Positions 43,441-50,972 of a DNA stretch of 64,000 nt are shown here, piece after piece (position 1 is the stretch's first letter; every line of letters starts with the position of its first letter). This DNA comes from Catenulispora acidiphila DSM 44928. Its GTDB lineage: Bacteria > Actinomycetota > Actinomycetes > Streptomycetales > Catenulisporaceae. The translations under genes were made by a program, and so were the position numbers. The notes under the pieces were generated by a model. That model searched no databases, had not been told where the DNA came from, and saw nothing but the letters and a program-made list of their open reading frames with translations. The stretch lies in NCBI RefSeq assembly GCF_000024025.1, contig NC_013131.1, positions 6,200,001 through 6,264,000 on the forward strand, written 5' to 3'.

Positions 43441-44205
43441 TCAGCCTTGGACCACAAGGTAGACGGCGAGAACGCAGAGCGTGGTGATCAAGGCGTTGCT
43501 CAGCGCGCGGGTGGGAAGGGCGTGAGCTATCTTCCAGCCCACGAGGACTCCGGCGAGCTCGGGGAGGCCGACGAGGGTGGCGAGCGGCCAGTCGATCGTG
43601 CCGTGGGCGAGGTATCCCACGGTCCCGGCCGTGGCGATGACCACTGATTGGGCCTGTGCACAGGCCAGCGAGCGGAGCATGGGGAGTCCCAGCGCGGCAA
43701 GCAGGGGGACCGTCAGCATCGGGCCGCCGATGCCCACGATGCCGCTGACGGCGGACACCGCCACTCCGATGACGGCGACCAGCGTCGTCGGTGCACGATC
43801 GAGCAGCACTGCCTGGGGGCGGCGGGCGCGGTACCAGACGAGCCCCGCCGTGGCGAGGAGCACGCCGCCGAGCACCACCGCGAACGTGTGCTTGGACACC
43901 ACAGTGCCGGCGATCACGCCGGCCCAGATTCCGACCAGCGCGCTCCCGGCCAGGATCAGCGCCGTGCGGCGGGTGTCGGGCTCGCGGAGCTGACCTGAGC
44001 GGATGTAGGCGGCGGAGCCCAGTGCGCCGGTGGCGATGTGCGTGACGATCGCGGTCCCGGCCACCTGCGCCGGCGACAGTCCCGTCAGTGCGAACAGCCC
44101 GATCGTGGGCAGCACGCCTCCCGGACCCACGGCCGTGATGCCGATCCCGCCGACCAGACCGATGACGGCGAGAAGCAGCAGCTCCGGCGGGCCCAATCCG
44201 CTCAC
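43441..44205 (-). CDS. TSUP (TauE/SafE)-family transporter
   Basis: The GTG at 44205 overlaps the stop of the upstream gntR gene (GTGA), so the genes are coupled. The 254-residue product has about 8 membrane spans and the two TSUP half-motifs: GLVGGIGITAVGPGGVLPTI near the start and VSGIVGIGGPMLTVPLLAAL in the second half. The family moves sulfite, sulfoacetate or related anions. No sulfonate-metabolism gene is adjacent. Its position next to arsenic genes may be coincidental. Confidence 0.86.
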   Translation of the reverse strand: MSGLGPPELLLLAVIGLVGGIGITAVGPGGVLPTIGLFALTGLSPAQVAGTAIVTHIATGALGSAAYIRSGQLREPDTRRTALILAGSALVGIWAGVIAGTVVSKHTFAVVLGGVLLATAGLVWYRARRPQAVLLDRAPTTLVAVIGVAVSAVSGIVGIGGPMLTVPLLAALGLPMLRSLACAQAQSVVIATAGTVGYLAHGTIDWPLATLVGLPELAGVLVGWKIAHALPTRALSNALITTLCVLAVYLVVQG

Positions 44206-45017
44206 GGGGCTTGGCTCAGACCGCGATACAGGGTCGCGCGCAGCGTCATGCGATCGGCGCGAACCCGCAGAAGCTCGGTGTCCACCGGGGTCCCGTCGGA
44301 CAGACGGGTCAGCCGGTCGATGAGGAAGATCGCGGCTCCGGGCCGGATATCGAGCAGCGACGCGGTTTCGGCGTCGGCGGTGGCCGCGCGCACCTCGATC
44401 TCGGCGCGGCCCAACGGGGATCCGGTGGTCTCCTCGATCACCGCGAAGATGTCGCGGGTCTCCAAGTCACCGCGCAGCACGCCACGGCCGACCTCGGCGG
44501 TGAGGTACGTACTGTCCACCGACACAGGCGATCCATCGACGCGGCGAACGCGCTCGATGTGGACCGCGGCCGCGCCGGGTTCGAGCCCCAGGCGCTCCAG
44601 AACCCTCGCGGGCGGATCGGCGATCTCCTCGGCGAGAAGGACCTCGTTGGCCACCGTCCCGTGTCCGGCCAGCGCCTCCGCCAGCCCCGCCAACCGGTCG
44701 AGGCCGTGACCGTACGCCGGCATGACGACGACCGTGCCCACCCCACGGCGGCGCGTGACCAACCCTTCGTCGCGCAGCAGACCGAGCGCCTCGCGCACCG
44801 CGTTCCGGGACGCGTCCAGCTGCTCGGCGAGAACGAGCTCGTCAGGCAGCACACCATCAGGAAAGCTCTCTGCCGCAATCCGCTGACGCAGCACCTCGGC
44901 AACCCGACGCGCTCGGTCCGCACGCGGCCTCGACGACACCCACTCCGGCGGAACGCGCCTCGCCGACGCGCCGTCAGAAGCCAACTCACCTGCTACGGAT
45001 ACCTCGTGTTCGCTCAT
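44202..45017 (-). CDS. GntR-family regulator with UTRA domain
   Basis: The 271-residue product has a winged helix (residues about 35-105: RVAEVLRQRIAAESFPDGVL, SRNAVREALGLLRDEGLVTR) and a UTRA effector domain from about 120, with GAAAVHIERVRRVDGSPVSV and TELLRVRADRMTLRATLY. Family members usually sense sugars, phosphonates or amino acids and repress a neighbouring operon. Coupling with the TSUP gene makes that transporter the likely target. Confidence 0.86.
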   Translation of the reverse strand: MSEHEVSVAGELASDGASARRVPPEWVSSRPRADRARRVAEVLRQRIAAESFPDGVLPDELVLAEQLDASRNAVREALGLLRDEGLVTRRRGVGTVVVMPAYGHGLDRLAGLAEALAGHGTVANEVLLAEEIADPPARVLERLGLEPGAAAVHIERVRRVDGSPVSVDSTYLTAEVGRGVLRGDLETRDIFAVIEETTGSPLGRAEIEVRAATADAETASLLDIRPGAAIFLIDRLTRLSDGTPVDTELLRVRADRMTLRATLYRGLSQAP

Positions 45018-45109: not shown

Positions 45110-45484
45110 TCAGACGGTCATGGCCTCGGCGCTGAACAGCAAGCGGGCCAGGTTGGCCATCCTGTCCGGGATCGCGCGGTAGTAGACCCAGGTGCCGCGA
45201 CGGTCGCCTTCGATCAGGCCGGCTTCCCGCAGGACCTTGAGGTGGTGGCTGATGGTCGGGCCGCTCAGCTCGAAGCCGGGGCTCAGGTCGCAGACGCACA
45301 TCTCGCCGGACGGGGCGCTGGCGATCTGCGAGAGCAGCTGAAGGCGGACCGGGTCGCCGAGGGCTTTGAAGGCCGGAGCCAGGGTGATCGCGTCGGCGGT
45401 GGATATCGAGTGGCCGTTCAGTGGTTCGCAGCAGGGGACGGGATCGGTGTCGGCCAGCGGCAAGAGCTCCTTGGGTTTCGCCAT
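45110..45484 (-). CDS. arsR: ArsR-family arsenic-type repressor (first copy)
   Basis: The 124-residue winged-helix product has the metalloid site of ArsR in helix 3 (EMCVCDLSP: Cys63, Cys65), with a further Cys18-Cys19 pair near the N-terminus (PVPCCEPL) that could supply extra ligands. The HTH is SGPTISHHLKVLREAGLIEG. Arsenite or antimonite binding releases ArsR from DNA. It is divergent from the Cys-rich gene with a 114-bp gap containing two TTCGAA palindromes. It probably controls the CCG protein, fusion and MFS genes. Confidence 0.9.
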   Translation of the reverse strand: MAKPKELLPLADTDPVPCCEPLNGHSISTADAITLAPAFKALGDPVRLQLLSQIASAPSGEMCVCDLSPGFELSGPTISHHLKVLREAGLIEGDRRGTWVYYRAIPDRMANLARLLFSAEAMTV

Positions 45485-45501
45485 GCTTCTATCTTGACGG
45501 A

Positions 45502-45545
45502 TTTCGAAACAGGGAGCAAGGTGGAGCTGCTTCGAAAAGTTTCAA
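45502..45545. promoter_or_regulatory. candidate ArsR operator region
   Basis: TTTCGAAA (45502-45509) and TTCGAA (45531-45536), the latter followed by AAGTTTCAA, lie in the gap between arsR and the divergent Cys-rich gene. Two palindromes 29 bp apart would suit an autoregulating ArsR dimer pair. The assignment is by position only. Confidence 0.4.
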
Positions 45546-45598
45546 TACAAGGAGGCGCCACTGCGGTGTCTCCATCCGGCCGCACGAGGAGTACGCAC

Positions 45599-45844
45599 AT
45601 GAGCGAGCAGACCACGGGGAGCAGCACCGCCGGCGGCTTCCAGGGAGACCTGACCGAGGCGTTCAACCCGGCGCCGGGCATCGGCTGTTGTGGCAGCCCG
45701 GCCGCGAACACCGGCGTCCAGACCGCCACGCCGGTCGCAGGACCCTGCTGCGGCACCGCGGAGGAGGCCAAGGCCGAGGGCGCCTGCTGTGGCTCGGCGG
45801 CCAAGACCGAGGCGGTCGCCGCGAGTACGGGCTGCTGCGGATGA
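45599..45844 (+). CDS. small Cys-rich protein with four Cys-Cys-Gly motifs
   Basis: The ATG at 45599 has GAGGAG 8 nt upstream. The 81-residue product has no signal peptide and is otherwise low complexity. Its four CCG triplets start at Cys30, Cys50, Cys63 and Cys79, the last closing the protein. Vicinal thiols bind As(III) and Sb(III) tightly, and it lies first in an ArsR-flanked operon, so a metalloid-binding chaperone or sponge is the natural reading. That function is inferred. Its stop overlaps the next start (ATGA). The downstream fusion also ends in GCCGT. Confidence 0.8.
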   Translation: MSEQTTGSSTAGGFQGDLTEAFNPAPGIGCCGSPAANTGVQTATPVAGPCCGTAEEAKAEGACCGSAAKTEAVAASTGCCG

Positions 45845-48120
45845 ATGCCGAGCCCTCGGCGGAGCGCATGACGGCCATCGTGGCGGCGCTGGCCGCCCGC
45901 GAGCTCGCCGGACGGCGAGTGGCCACGCGCGGCGGAGCCGCCGCCCGGACCTGGTTGACGGCCGCGCTGACCGAACTCGACGCGGTCAGCGAGGTCGAAC
46001 GGTTCGACACGGCGGCAGGCGGTGCCGCGAACCTTTACGCCACGATCGCCGCACCTACTCCCGATCCTGCTCCCGCTCCCGGCTCGCCGGAGATCTGGCT
46101 GACCGCGCACTACGACGGCGTCGGCGACATCGACGGCGTCCACCGACCCGGCGCCTCGGACAACGCCTCCGGCGTGGCCGTAGTCCTGGAAGCGGCGCGG
46201 CTGCTGAAAGAGCGACTGCCGAACGGCGTAGGGCTGCGTGTCGCCCTGCTCGACGCCGAGGAGATAGGCACCGTCGGCTCGGCCCACCACGCGGCCCGGC
46301 TCGTCGCATCCGGCCGGAGTCCGTACGTCCTCAACGTCGACGGCGCGGGAGAGCTGAACGAGGCGGTAGCCGTGGAAGCCGGAGGTCCCGCGATGCCGAT
46401 CCTGGCCGCACTCGACGCGGCCGGAAAGAGCGCGGGCGTCCCGCTGCGGGCAGGGCAGGTCGCCTCGGACAACCGTCGATACGCCGCCGCCGGCCTGGCC
46501 ACGGTCGGGCTCGGCGCCGGGATGCCCGGCTACCACTCCGAGCACGACACAGCCGACCGTGTCCAGCCTGCGACACTGCTCGCCATGGTCCGCTTGGTCG
46601 TGGGCACCGTCGAGCATCTGGCGCAGCACACGGACATCAGCACAGAGACGCCAGCACCACCCGAGAGACTGACCACCCAAGAGACTGGAGAGGCGAGTAT
46701 GAACCCGATATCGGCCGAACCGCCGGTCGTCGTCATCGGCGCCGGGCCCGTCGGCTTGGCGGCCGCCGCGCACCTGGTCGAGCGCGGCATCCCCTTCCAA
46801 ATACTGGAAGCAGGAGACGAGGTCGGAGCAGCGGTGCGCTCCTGGGGTCACGTCCGCCTGTTCAGCCCGTGGCGCTATGACATCGACGCCGCAGCCCGCG
46901 CGCTTCTGGAGCCGACCGGCTGGACCGCGCCGGACCCGGAGGACGCCCCGACCGGCGCCGAGCTGGTGGAGCGCTATCTTGTTCCGCTCGCGGCGACAGC
47001 GCAGATCGCGCCGCATCTGCGGTTCGGGCACCGCGTGACGGCGATAAGCCGCGTCGGCGTGGACCGGATGCGCACGCGCGGCCGGGAGCGAGCGCCGTTC
47101 CTGATCCGCGTCGACATCGGCGGTGTCACCACCGACCTGCAAGCGCGCGCGGTCATCGACGCCAGCGGCACCTGGAGCACGCCGAACGTCCTTGGTGCCT
47201 CGGGCCTGCCCGCCTACGGCGAGATCGAGGCGGCAGCATTCATCGACCACGCGCTGCCGGACGTCCTGGGTCCAGCCCGCAGTCTCTACGCCGGCCGGCA
47301 CACGCTGGTGGTCGGCGCCGGGCACTCGGCGGCGAACACGCTGCTGACGCTGGCCGAACTCGCCGAGACCGAGCCGGGCACGCGCATCTCCTGGGCGATC
47401 CGCACGGGCTCAGCGGCGCGCACCTACGGCGGCGGCGAGGCCGACGCTCTCCCGGCGCGGGGTGCACTCGGCGCCAGGTTGAAGACCTTGGTCGCCGAGG
47501 GCCGGATCGAGCTGGTGAATCAGTTCTCGGCCGAGACCGTCAGGGTCCTGGCAGGCAGCGGCGGGATCGAGGTCGAGAGCATCGACGCGCGCGGGGTGAA
47601 GAAGCTCGTGGCCTGCGACCGGATCGTGGCGGCCACGGGATTCCGCCCCGACCACTCGATCACCAGCGAACTGCGCTTGGATCTGGATCCGATCCTCGGC
47701 TCGACCCGCGCGCTGGCGCCGCTGATCGATCCGAACGAGCACTCCTGCGGCACCGTGCCGCCGCACGGCGTGGACGAGTTGTCCCACCCCGAACCGGACT
47801 TCTACGCGATCGGCATGAAGTCCTACGGCCGAGCTCCGACGTTCCTGCTGGCCACCGGCTACGAGCAGGCCCGCTCCGTGGTGGCCGCCCTGGCAGGAGA
47901 CTGGAATGCGGCCCGCGACGTGCGTCTGGAGCTACCGGAAACCGGAGTGTGCAACACCACCCTCCCGGGCGAGGAGATCGAGTCCGCAGGCTGCGGCACT
48001 TCGTGCGGCACCCCGGAACCAGTGAGCGTGGGGCTGCCCACAGGCATCTCAGGAGGCTTGCTGTCTGAGCCTCTCCCGTTGGTCCAGACCAGCAGCGAGT
48101 CCGGGTGCTGCGGCACCTGA
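45841..48120 (+). CDS. M28 metallopeptidase fused to an ArsO-like FAD-dependent oxidoreductase
   Basis: One uninterrupted 759-codon frame starts at ATG 45841. Residues 1-255 are an M28 aminopeptidase with apparent complete zinc ligands: His90 in LTAHYDG, Asp107 in GASDNASG, Glu140-Glu141, Asp167 and His232. After a linker of weak G/C third-position bias (about 262-286), Met287 opens a two-dinucleotide-fold flavoprotein: VVVIGAGPVGLAAAAHLVE, a second VVGAGHSAANTLLTLAEL and ATGFRPDH, like ArsO/BVMO-type monooxygenases. The tail has AGCGTSCGT and ends GCCGT. GGAG lies 9 nt before Met287, so a separate flavoprotein could also be made. Linkage to arsR suggests action on an arsenic compound; the substrate is unknown. 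Confidence 0.85.
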   Translation: MNAEPSAERMTAIVAALAARELAGRRVATRGGAAARTWLTAALTELDAVSEVERFDTAAGGAANLYATIAAPTPDPAPAPGSPEIWLTAHYDGVGDIDGVHRPGASDNASGVAVVLEAARLLKERLPNGVGLRVALLDAEEIGTVGSAHHAARLVASGRSPYVLNVDGAGELNEAVAVEAGGPAMPILAALDAAGKSAGVPLRAGQVASDNRRYAAAGLATVGLGAGMPGYHSEHDTADRVQPATLLAMVRLVVGTVEHLAQHTDISTETPAPPERLTTQETGEASMNPISAEPPVVVIGAGPVGLAAAAHLVERGIPFQILEAGDEVGAAVRSWGHVRLFSPWRYDIDAAARALLEPTGWTAPDPEDAPTGAELVERYLVPLAATAQIAPHLRFGHRVTAISRVGVDRMRTRGRERAPFLIRVDIGGVTTDLQARAVIDASGTWSTPNVLGASGLPAYGEIEAAAFIDHALPDVLGPARSLYAGRHTLVVGAGHSAANTLLTLAELAETEPGTRISWAIRTGSAARTYGGGEADALPARGALGARLKTLVAEGRIELVNQFSAETVRVLAGSGGIEVESIDARGVKKLVACDRIVAATGFRPDHSITSELRLDLDPILGSTRALAPLIDPNEHSCGTVPPHGVDELSHPEPDFYAIGMKSYGRAPTFLLATGYEQARSVVAALAGDWNAARDVRLELPETGVCNTTLPGEEIESAGCGTSCGTPEPVSVGLPTGISGGLLSEPLPLVQTSSESGCCGT

Positions 48121-49406
48121 CCGGGACAGCCGGCGCCGTGCCGGGCGCCGCCGTGTCGGGAAGCGCCGAGTCCGGCGGCTCCCGACACGGCGCGTTGGCG
48201 CAGTACCGGTGGCGTTTGGTCGCAGGCTTGGCGGTCAGCCAGACCGTCGGTTACGGCGTGCTGTTCTACGTCTTCTCCGTCTTCCTCATCCCGACCGCGC
48301 ACGACCTGCACACCAGCACGCCGGTGGTGACCGGGGCACTGACAGCGTCACTGCTGGCCGCAGCCGCAGCCGCCGTCCCGGTCGGCCGCCACCTGGACCG
48401 ACACGGCGGTCGACTGCTGATGACCGGCGGCTCGATCGCCGCCAGTGTCCTGGTGGCGGTCTGGTCCCAGGTCACGTCGGTGTGGCAGTTGTACGCCGTA
48501 TGGATCGGCATCGGGGTCGCCTCGGCGGCGGTGTTGTACGAGGCGGCGTTCGCGGTGCTCGTCCCCTGGTTCGGCGCCGACAGCCGCGCCAAAGCCCTGC
48601 TGGCGGTGACCATCGTGGCCGGCTTCGCCTCCAGCGTCTTCCTGCCGAGCGCGGGATACCTGCTGGCCGATCTGGGTTGGCGCGACGCGGTCTTGGTCCT
48701 GGCGGTCGCGCACGCCGCACTCACCGTTCCGTTTCACCTCTATATACGTCGGCCTTCGCAGTCCTCGACCAAGACCGCTCCAGATGGCCGGCGCCGACAG
48801 ATCGTCTCCGTCGCGCTGCACGACCCGGTGTTCTGGACGCTCGGCTGTTCTCTGCTGGCCCAGGGCGCCGCTGTCTTCGTCATGGGTGTCCTGCTGGTCG
48901 CCGCGCTCCGGGATTTCGGACATTCGGCCACGTTCGCCGCCACCACCGCTGGGATGCTCGGCGTGCTCTCGGTCAGCGGTCGCCTGGCGTTCACCGCAGC
49001 AGGCAGACGCGCATCGGCGACCGACGTCGCCGCTGCGGTGTTCGTGGTCCAGGGCATCGGTGTCGGGCTACTCCCCCTGATCGGCAGAACCAGCCTCGGC
49101 GCGATCGCCTGCGTCCTGGTCTTCGGGCTCGGCTTCGGCGTGTCGACCCTGATCCGACCCGCCGTGCTCACCGCCCGCTACGGCACCGAGGCCTTCGCCA
49201 CGCTGTCCGGGCTGCTCACCTTGCCGCTGACCCTGGTCAAAGCCCTGGCTCCGCTCGTGTCGGCAGCGTGGGCGAGCGCTGCGCACAGCTACGCCCCGCC
49301 GCTGACCGCATCAGCTGGGTGTTGCCTGATCGGGGCGGCGGCGATGGCCGTGATCCGCCAGTTGGAGCGTCGACGGAGGCCAGCGTTCGAGCCGCTTGCC
49401 TCGTAG
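48105..49406 (+). CDS. MFS exporter of the arsenic locus
   Basis: The GTG at 48105 lies inside the end of the fusion gene (16-bp overlap); GTG 48138 is an alternative. The 433-residue product has about 12 membrane spans, with VAGLAVSQTVGYGVLFYVFS at the first, VGRHLDRHGGRLLMTGGS in loop 2-3, and GFGVSTLIRPAVLTARYGTE in the second half. This is the oxalate/monocarboxylate-like MFS type. It completes the arsR-CCG-fusion operon and probably exports that pathway's product. No adjacent GAPDH gene marks it as ArsJ. Confidence 0.8.
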   Translation: MLRHLTGTAGAVPGAAVSGSAESGGSRHGALAQYRWRLVAGLAVSQTVGYGVLFYVFSVFLIPTAHDLHTSTPVVTGALTASLLAAAAAAVPVGRHLDRHGGRLLMTGGSIAASVLVAVWSQVTSVWQLYAVWIGIGVASAAVLYEAAFAVLVPWFGADSRAKALLAVTIVAGFASSVFLPSAGYLLADLGWRDAVLVLAVAHAALTVPFHLYIRRPSQSSTKTAPDGRRRQIVSVALHDPVFWTLGCSLLAQGAAVFVMGVLLVAALRDFGHSATFAATTAGMLGVLSVSGRLAFTAAGRRASATDVAAAVFVVQGIGVGLLPLIGRTSLGAIACVLVFGLGFGVSTLIRPAVLTARYGTEAFATLSGLLTLPLTLVKALAPLVSAAWASAAHSYAPPLTASAGCCLIGAAAMAVIRQLERRRRPAFEPLAS

Positions 49407-49431
49407 TATGGACCACTGTAAATATAGACGC

Positions 49432-49791
49432 ATGTCGAAGAAGGAGCTTCCGGTGATCGCGGAGGCGTGCAGTACGCCGCTGGTCACCGAGCCGCTGACA
49501 GACCTTGAAGCCGCAGGTCTCGCGCACGTGTTCAAAGCGCTGGCCGACCCGGTGCGGCTGCGCCTGTTCTCGCTGATCGCCTCGTTCGAGGGCGGACAGG
49601 CGTGCGTGTGCGACCTCACCCCCTACTTCGACGTGTCCCAACCGACCATCAGCCACCACCTGAAGGTGCTGCGCGAGGCCGGCCTGGTGGACTCCGAACG
49701 CCGCGGGACCTGGATCCACTACCGCGTACGGTCTGAGGCTCTGGGCCGACTGTCCCTATTGCTCGCGCCGACGGTGACGGTCGCGGGATGA
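49432..49791 (+). CDS. arsR: ArsR-family arsenic-type repressor (second copy)
   Basis: The 119-residue product starts at ATG 49432, 7 nt after TAAATA, with TTGCCT 17 bp further up, so a leaderless message is likely. It has ACVCDLTPY (Cys58, Cys60), an N-terminal Cys13 and HTH VSQPTISHHLKVLREAGLVD. It is similar to but not identical with the first arsR. Its stop overlaps the aquaglyceroporin start (ATGA), making arsR-aqp-arsC a coupled operon. Confidence 0.9.
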   Translation: MSKKELPVIAEACSTPLVTEPLTDLEAAGLAHVFKALADPVRLRLFSLIASFEGGQACVCDLTPYFDVSQPTISHHLKVLREAGLVDSERRGTWIHYRVRSEALGRLSLLLAPTVTVAG

Positions 49792-50531
49792 CTGTGCCGC
49801 TGGCCCGCCGCGTGCTGGCCGAAGCGCTCGGGACCGCGCTGCTGGTCGCGGTCGTCGTCGGTTCCGGGATCATGGCGACGAACCTGACCGGCGACGTCGG
49901 ACTCCGGCTGCTGGCCAACTCCATCGCCACGGTGTTCGGGCTGGCCGTGCTGATCCTCATTTTCGGACCGGTCTCCGGGGCACACTTCAACCCGGTCGTC
50001 ACCATCGCCGACTACGCCCTGTCCCGCCGCTCCGGCGACGGGACCGACCTGCGAACCATCGCCGCCTACCTACCGGCACAGACCGCCGGCGGCATCGGCG
50101 GCACGGTGCTCGCGAACCTGATGTTCGGCCTGCCAGCGGTGACGGCTTCCACCCACGTACGCGCCGCCGGTCACCTGTGGTTGGGCGAGGTCGTCGCCAC
50201 GGCGGGCCTGATCCTGCTGATCTTCTCGCTGGTACGGTCCGAACGTGGGGCGATCATCGCCCCGGCGGTCGGCGCCTACATCGGCGCGGCCTACTGGTTC
50301 ACCTCCTCCACCAGCTTCGCCAACCCGGCTGTGACGATCGCGCGGGCTTTCACCGACACCTTCGCCGGGATCGCGCCGGGCTCGGTCGCGGGCTTCGTGG
50401 CCTTTCAATGCGTCGGCGCGGTGATCGGCATCGGGCTGGTCGCGATGCTTTACCCCGTTGGGCGCCACGCGGAGAACACCGCTGCCGAACCGCTGGCCGA
50501 AGCCGAACGCATGCCGGTGACTGTTCGATAA
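49788..50531 (+). CDS. MIP-family aquaglyceroporin, arsenite channel (AqpS-like)
   Basis: The 247-residue product has six membrane spans and both MIP half-helix motifs: HFNPVVT (NPV in place of NPA) and FANPAVTIARAF, with the selectivity-filter Arg following the second. In the arsR-aqpS-arsC type of operon the channel lets As(III), produced by ArsC, leave the cell down its gradient; no ArsB or Acr3 pump is present here. Its start overlaps arsR by 4 nt and arsC follows 27 bp later. Confidence 0.88.
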   Translation: MTVPLARRVLAEALGTALLVAVVVGSGIMATNLTGDVGLRLLANSIATVFGLAVLILIFGPVSGAHFNPVVTIADYALSRRSGDGTDLRTIAAYLPAQTAGGIGGTVLANLMFGLPAVTASTHVRAAGHLWLGEVVATAGLILLIFSLVRSERGAIIAPAVGAYIGAAYWFTSSTSFANPAVTIARAFTDTFAGIAPGSVAGFVAFQCVGAVIGIGLVAMLYPVGRHAENTAAEPLAEAERMPVTVR

Positions 50532-50558: not shown

Positions 50559-50972
50559 ATGATGTCCGCTGCTAAGCCGTCGGTCCTGTTCGTGTGTGTC
50601 CACAACGCCGGCCGTTCCCAGATGGCCGCGGGCTTTCTGACGCACCTGGCCGGCGACCGCGTCACCGTCCGCTCAGCCGGCTCGGCCCCGGCAGATCAGG
50701 TCAACCCGGCGGTGCTGGAGGCCATGAAGGAAGTCGGCATCGACCTGTCGGCCGAGACGCCGAAGGTCCTGACCGACGAGGCCGCCCTGGCTTCGGACTA
50801 CATCATCACCATGGGCTGCGGCGACGCCTGCCCGGTCTACCCCGGCAAGACCTACCTCGACTGGGTTCTGACCGATCCGGCGGGCCAGGGCGTCGAGGCG
50901 GTCCGGCCGATCCGGGACGAGATCGAGCGCCGCATCAAGGGCCTTATCGAGGAAATCGACGCCACCGGGTGA
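50559..50972 (+). CDS. arsC: arsenate reductase ArsC (low-molecular-weight phosphatase type)
   Basis: The 137-residue product has the P-loop CVHNAGRS (Cys13-x5-Arg19), Cys87 and Cys91 in MGCGDACPVYPG, and the late Asp in LTDPAGQ. This is the thioredoxin- or mycothiol-coupled ArsC class, which reduces arsenate to arsenite. The three cysteines suit the thioredoxin-type relay, although actinobacterial members can use mycothiol, which this organism makes (mshC). A second ATG 3 bp inside the frame is an alternative start. It ends the arsenic block, 70 bp before steA. Confidence 0.93.
   Translation: MMSAAKPSVLFVCVHNAGRSQMAAGFLTHLAGDRVTVRSAGSAPADQVNPAVLEAMKEVGIDLSAETPKVLTDEAALASDYIITMGCGDACPVYPGKTYLDWVLTDPAGQGVEAVRPIRDEIERRIKGLIEEIDATG

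Follow-up and report, generated by a model that had tools for sequence, protein, structure and literature searches.

An overlapping gene pair for a CCG-repeat protein and an M28 peptidase in ars loci, with the peptidase fused to a flavoprotein in Catenulispora

We have analyzed an ars locus of the soil actinomycete Catenulispora acidiphila DSM 44928 located in a stretch of 64,000 nucleotides of its genome (NC_013131.1, positions 6,200,001 to 6,264,000; hereafter the window); the genome is a single contig of 10,467,782 bases. Two overlapping genes of this locus encode an 81-residue protein with four Cys-Cys-Gly motifs (the CCG protein) and a 759-residue protein that joins an M28 peptidase to a flavoprotein. 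The CCG-M28 gene pair is a new part of this system and its conserved unit, and the fusion is confined to Catenulispora within what was searched. The arsenic context of the operon is scarcely in doubt. For the locus as a whole the best explanation, which we put forward tentatively, is an ArsR-controlled arsenic-detoxification operon with an accessory CCG-M28 module.

The fusion frame (45841-48120, forward strand) contains 759 codons and no internal stop. Pfam places an M28 domain (PF04389) at residues 83-254 (E = 1.5e-25; 90.5 bits, cut-off 21.3) and a Pyr_redox_3 domain (PF13738) at residues 297-609 (E = 1.1e-14; 54.9 bits, cut-off 30), in agreement with an initial annotation made from this DNA alone, which had described an M28 peptidase joined to a two-Rossmann flavoprotein. 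The other features it described are likewise present, namely the small protein with four CCG motifs, the ATGA at 45841-45844 in which the stop codon of the CCG gene and the start codon of the fusion overlap, a divergent ArsR with a CVC site and a fusion C-terminus reading GCCGT. Thus its observation is confirmed; its interpretation, as seen below, is partly supported. The frame is open in all five loci found in four Catenulispora genomes, two of which belong to the genome of the window (the second copy, at 9978670-9980874, is 80% identical to the first), the others lying in genomes G007, G023 and G025. The linker between the domains differs among these loci by multiples of three, without a stop. 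An assembly error or missed stop was rejected as the source of the fusion because the five loci share the open frame; the four further loci make a stop overlooked between residues 262 and 286, a weak point raised in the initial annotation, very unlikely. The ratio of nonsynonymous to synonymous divergence (dN/dS) is 0.22-0.31 for the M28 half and 0.05-0.25 for the flavoprotein half (10 pairs each), so both halves are under purifying selection. We regard the fusion as real with near certainty. Among 10 Catenulispora genomes searched, seven contain the flavoprotein and four the intact fusion. A GGAG located 8 nucleotides before an in-frame start codon is kept at the domain joint in all five loci (ATG in four, TTG in one); it is either the former ribosome site or an internal start still in use, and free flavoprotein may therefore be made besides the fusion. 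The second operon copy (within 9970000-9989000) comprises genes for ArsR, the CCG protein, the fusion, an MFS protein, a further ArsR, an aquaporin and, twice, ArsC. It is closer to the copies of G007 and G023 (dS 0.32-0.38, M28 and flavoprotein) than to the window copy (0.67-0.74). The genome of the window has no further M28 gene matching the M28 alignment at 0.001.

A search for the same fusion or for adjacent genes elsewhere, as the initial annotation had proposed, detected the CCG-M28 pair beyond the genus and the fusion only within it. At 1e-25 the M28 alignment matched nothing in 296 genomes of the phylum besides the genome of the window. A contig scan with two short peptide patterns gave four loci: three belong to Catenulispora, and the fourth is a 32% match from a pseudomonadotal metagenome-assembled genome. 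A general actinobacterial M28-flavoprotein fusion is thus unsupported, since M28 is absent from 29 examined loci of the order that belong to family f2 and the two scans add no fusion outside the genus beyond that one 32% match. A tblastn match led to the pair in Nonomuraea gerenzanensis, where a CCG gene overlaps a separate M28 gene by ATGA, downstream of the flavoprotein and arsR. In 394 genomes of the class a CCG profile matched five, including that of the window, with clear matches in G702 and G539 and weak ones in G343 and G674. An M28 profile run at 1e-15 on 394 genomes of the class, which may be a different draw, matched 12; G702 and G539 scored below 1e-90, with the gene directly after the CCG gene, and the ten others 1e-24 or weaker.

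To count neighbours, 124 loci with flanks were fetched, picked by score and not at random: 40 of roughly 100 listed places in the order, 12 from phylum genomes outside it, 8 of 124 matching plasmid records, four CCG matches and, from roughly 120 places listed for the family of G702, 60 with high scores. In these 60, M28 scores above 120 bits in nine, each with a CCG gene before it; in one of the nine, L202, the M28 gene looks frameshifted. Altogether, 16 intact cases were found, five in Catenulispora and 11 elsewhere (L130, L143, L144, L160, L161, L162, L164, L166, L194, L199 and L212), and in every one M28 comes immediately after the CCG gene. The CCG stop and M28 start overlap in 15 of the 16, as ATGA in 12 and as TGATG in three; in L166 they are 47 nucleotides apart. 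Outside Catenulispora, M28 stands as a gene of its own in all 11 cases. In the literature searched, which lacks most subscription papers, nothing was recognised as an account of an M28 peptidase or a CCG-repeat protein from ars operons, a result that argues for novelty only weakly.

The flavoprotein is a widespread family without a name. It was found in 85 of 147 genomes of the order (mostly as the flavoprotein alone), 20 of 296 of the phylum and 109 of 220 of the family of G702; tblastn also matched plasmids of Proteobacteria (124 of 72,556 records, none counted at 80% coverage). One fetched locus, L146, is without it. Among the remaining 123, arsR lies within 2 kb of the flavoprotein gene in 108, which upholds the arsR linkage claimed in the initial annotation, an ArsK-like MFS gene lies within 1.5 kb in 69, and other ars genes (arsC, acr3, arsM or aquaporin) lie within 9 kb in 82; actinobacterial tblastn queries were used, so these counts understate distant ars genes. 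Cys636 is present in all 123 flavoproteins of an alignment of 122 fetched loci plus the window (L044 and L146 left out), and Cys704 in 120, the other three having a gap. Of 122 proteins, 116 have a CC pair within their last 60 residues and 84 have one within their last 12.

The initial annotation had called this protein ArsO-like. It resembles ArsO in being a two-Rossmann flavoprotein of actinobacterial ars clusters; however, its score with the ArsO model (NF040505) is 52 bits, over residues 296-511 only, against a cut-off of 425, and the ArsO assignment was rejected. A true ArsO (551.8 bits) is encoded separately in a related cluster (L143, 6897-7955), and ArsO-like genes are common near the flavoprotein, including in other loci of the G702 family. 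Since both occur in the same clusters, they are probably not interchangeable. ArsV, an oxidase with the cofactors flavin adenine dinucleotide (FAD) and reduced nicotinamide adenine dinucleotide phosphate (NADPH), acts on MAs(III) and Sb(III), and we take the flavoprotein to be probably of this type of trivalent-arsenical oxidase. The likeness comes from gene context: as in operons of the arsR-flavoprotein-arsK kind, the gene adjoins arsR and precedes arsK in Ensifer (two loci) and Rhizobium (one locus), and the one arsK of these operons that was scored reached 513 bits (cut-off 400). No ArsV model was among the NCBIfam matches listed (25 of 67). A review describes ArsV as oxidizing methylarsenite (PMC10080717). 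The loci described here differ from ArsV operons by the N-terminal M28 and the separate CCG protein. On gene context and conserved cysteines, a role as trivalent-arsenical oxidase appears probable.

The M28 half matches the profile of its family well above threshold, and His90, Asp92, Asp107, Glu140, Glu141, Asp167 and His232, which include the residues reported as intact in the initial annotation, are invariant in the five Catenulispora fusions. We presume their roles, five metal ligands and a catalytic glutamate, from M28 aminopeptidases. The same catalytic set occurs in the aminopeptidases 2ek8 and 6hc6 (profile matches 1.2e-12 and 2.6e-11), from which the fusion differs in having no signal peptide discernible by eye, an operon partner and a C-terminal flavoprotein. 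Three M28 proteins from outside Catenulispora that were aligned (L130, L143, L144) carry an extra stretch of about 120 residues; a plasmid search with this second M28 type matched one of 72,556 records. Further M28 genes of a more distant kind occur in the genus and, like the pseudomonadotal match, stand outside the counts of CCG neighbours.

M28 is accessory, since it is broken or a remnant in six further loci. Fragments lie between the CCG gene and the flavoprotein in G003 (also detected by profile, 1.3e-45), G017 and G021 (both by eye); L167 and L198 retain short remnants, with no CCG gene found there; and in L202 (10100-11089) M28 adjoins the CCG gene and its frame breaks in the insert region. 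The CCG gene thus persists in four of the six (G003, G017, G021 and L202). In a FastTree phylogeny of 58 flavoproteins, computed without support values and without L044, G017 (L045) groups within the intact clade but G021 (L046) does not, suggesting that the two lost M28 separately. The flavoprotein frame is open in both; in G003 it has an early in-frame TAG, so that the whole G003 operon may be decaying. An N-terminal block of the CCG protein, GGFxG(D/N)xxxAF, is present in 15 of the 16 proteins accompanied by an intact M28 (L166 keeps GGF only) and in three of the six that are not (present in L044, L046 and L202, absent from L045, L047 and L048), which hints that the block may serve M28.

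From these observations we propose the following scheme, in which metal binding, oxidation, hand-over and the M28 substrate are deduced from sequence. The Cys-rich tail of the flavoprotein would take up trivalent arsenic (or antimony or methylarsenite) and pass it to Cys636 and Cys704, and oxidation would proceed with FAD and NAD(P)H, as in an ArsV-type monooxygenase; the ArsK-like MFS protein and the other ars proteins would complete detoxification. The CCG protein would serve as a small, multivalent thiol carrier: its vicinal thiols, comparable to the Cys pairs of ArsD, would pick up trivalent arsenic, which it would hand to the tail, much as the tail of MerA hands on mercury. Such an As(III) carrier, which the initial annotation had also suggested, is the role we think it rather likely to have. 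M28 would be a metallopeptidase dedicated to the CCG protein, trimming or recycling it, probably by way of the N-terminal block; that it acts on the CCG protein is a possibility to which we give somewhat less than even credence. In Catenulispora the pair is located directly upstream of the flavoprotein, with M28 fused to it and a start for a free flavoprotein kept.

Several points weigh against this scheme. Its evidence comes from sequence, and a fold prediction from a three-sequence alignment (mean predicted local distance difference test score 35.5) was not used. Fifteen of the 123 flavoprotein loci lack an arsR gene at a distance of up to 2 kb. The eleven weaker M28 matches, spread over ten class genomes (32-36% identical), show no CCG-type gene within about 1.5 kb, so that the M28 family as such is not tied to the CCG protein. 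The association of the block with an intact M28 is weak (Fisher p 0.046, or 0.024 when the frameshifted L202 is counted as intact), the loci being related and hence not independent. The likeness between flavoprotein tails and CCG proteins is mainly one of Cys spacing, and shuffles with fixed cysteines equal the score in 8 to 206 of 500. For the same reason, that only the spacing is clearly common to both, the idea that the CCG protein derives from the tail as a detached copy was rejected. Some proteobacterial flavoproteins (L131, L133, L135-L137) have a long Cys-rich tail (CCG...CC...CGCG) spaced like the separate CCG protein.

Two relatives of the flavoprotein score 59.7 and 53.2 bits with the YpdA model, against 54.7 and 53.3 with that of ArsO, and the window protein scores 33.3 with YpdA. 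These values, together with the two near-invariant cysteines and those of the tail, could point to a disulfide reductase like YpdA or thioredoxin reductase, whose task would be to maintain mycothiol, the CCG protein or its own tail in the reduced state and not to oxidize arsenic. The tail may be compared with NmerA and with that of MerA, a flavoprotein whose C-terminal Cys pair lies on a flexible region and hands on mercury (PMC4500099). However, every score is far below the YpdA cut-off of 339.9, the protein has no CxxC motif and Cys636 and Cys704 are far apart in sequence. We therefore consider a disulfide reductase unlikely. MerA itself relies on a CXXXXC redox site to reduce Hg(II), and no such site was seen here.

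In 10 of the 11 intact M28 genes outside Catenulispora, and also in L202, the last metal-binding histidine is replaced by glutamine (L166 keeps His), a further point against the scheme. Taken with the remnants in five loci, the frameshift in L202 and the absence of M28 from the 29 examined family f2 loci, it would fit a passenger or a metal-binding pseudo-enzyme, with the fusion a functionless accident of gene order. Yet the dN/dS of M28, the retention of all ligands in five of five Catenulispora genes and the coupling of its start to the CCG gene in 15 of 16 cases make this improbable.

The initial annotation had suggested that the fusion may release and oxidize an organoarsenical or an arsenic-thiol/peptide conjugate, and the surroundings of the pair in two relatives lend this idea some support. 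In L166 (genome G797) the CCG-M28 pair is preceded by genes for homologues of EPSPS (413 bits) and phosphoglycerate mutase (386 bits), a CTP-synthase-like protein and a PHO4/PiT transporter; G873 (L212/L220/L221) has the same gene set, 73-83% identical, about 7 kb from its pair and with the flavoprotein in between. Each of the two clusters also encodes a CMD protein, a GNAT-domain protein and ATP-grasp proteins, of which one was tested in G797 and three were tested in G873. In bisenarsan synthesis BsnM and BsnN are proposed to make arsonopyruvate from arsenate (PMC12159101). These bsnMN-like clusters with ATP-grasp genes (L166 1-6883 and L212/L220, the latter also with ABC transporters) are candidates for organoarsenical peptide biosynthesis. 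M28 might accordingly hydrolyse an amide or peptide of an organoarsenical, such as an arsono-peptide that the organism makes or encounters in soil; the flavoprotein would then oxidize the freed arsenical and the CCG protein would buffer As(III). However, bsnM-like genes were found at 1e-15 in only two of the loci scanned for them; in contrast to bsn clusters, the genome of the window holds a single EPSPS (bsnM) match, 35% identical and probably the housekeeping EPSPS; and the tight coupling of the M28 and CCG genes would be left unexplained. We judge it rather unlikely. Still less probable is that the CCG protein is a genetically encoded multivalent arsenic-binding peptide, an arsenic counterpart of metallophores or of ribosomally synthesized and post-translationally modified peptides, produced in arsenic operons and close to organoarsenical biosynthesis clusters, matured by M28 cutting a GGFxG(D/N)xxxAF leader and then feeding the flavoprotein or leaving through the ArsK-like exporter. 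With respect to a precursor role of this kind, the conserved N-terminal block and the repeated CCG were observed; no modifying enzyme was identified, and no systematic search for one was made.

The layout of the operon is summarized in Table 1. The MFS protein is related to ArsK without being assigned to it, its match extending over nearly the full length at a score below the cut-off. The MIP-type channel is presumably AqpS-like. In the whole window TTCGAAA occurs only in the divergent promoter region, with three matches, two of which are the two strands of one palindrome; the chance mean is 1.37, and because 17 of 100 shuffles reach three the operator signal is weak. An operator alignment across the family was uninformative, and PHROGs gave no match. 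A small frame of about 50 residues (MFRR...KFCDGxG...ERSARRLEAARTxA...PRV) was found by pattern between ArsR and CCG in L041, L042, L044, L045 and L046 and, by eye on the DNA, probably also occurs in L040 and L043; the pattern gave no match in the window. Overlapping genes for a TauE/SafE permease (43441-44205) and a GntR/UTRA regulator (44202-45017) adjoin the operon, and a Shinella ars cluster (L133) also has a TauE gene.

Table 1. Features of the ars operon in the window
Feature	Position	Strand	Evidence or remark
ArsR/SmtB repressor, divergent, CVC and N-terminal CC	45110..45484	-	HTH_5 4e-16; NF033788 92 bits (cut-off 55); MCVCDL Cys site
Divergent promoter region	45485..45598	none	TTTCGAAA and CTTCGAAAAG may be operator
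CCG protein, 81 aa: N-terminal GGFxGDxxxAF block, then four CCG motifs, CCG at C-terminus	45599..45844	+	
M28 peptidase-flavoprotein fusion, 759 aa	45841..48120	+	ATGA overlap with CCG gene
M28 peptidase domain, residues 1-261	45841..46623	+	metal ligands and EE present; no signal peptide by eye
GGAG (46687-46690) and in-frame ATG (46699) at domain joint	46687..46701	+	possible start of free flavoprotein
Flavoprotein domain, residues 287-759: two Rossmann motifs, Cys636, Cys704, Cys-rich tail ending GCCGT	46699..48117	+	
MFS exporter, ArsK-like	48105..49406	+	NF033733 141 bits, cut-off 400
Second ArsR	49396..49791	+	
MIP/aquaporin-type channel	49788..50531	+	PF00230 1.6e-21
LMWP-fold ArsC-like arsenate reductase	50559..50972	+	PF01451 1.5e-21; TIGR02689 85.2 bits, below cut-off 157.6

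Among known ars proteins the CCG protein is most readily compared with the metallochaperone ArsD, also a small protein of ars operons, for which vicinal Cys pairs are described (PMC4562236). It differs in its repeated CCG motifs, and searches of Pfam and NCBIfam at E values up to 1 matched it to no ArsD model. Actinobacteria are rich in arsenic genes, parts of which are only partly understood, and the CCG-M28 pairing points to an undescribed accessory step in their handling of arsenic. The overlap of the two genes, the fusion and, in two relatives, the nearby arsonopyruvate-type genes suggest a protein carrier on which arsenic would be handled and which would itself be cleaved or recycled. Ars operons would then contain a step that goes beyond the usual efflux, reduction, methylation and oxidation, and organoarsenical clusters might be located with the aid of the CCG-M28 pair.

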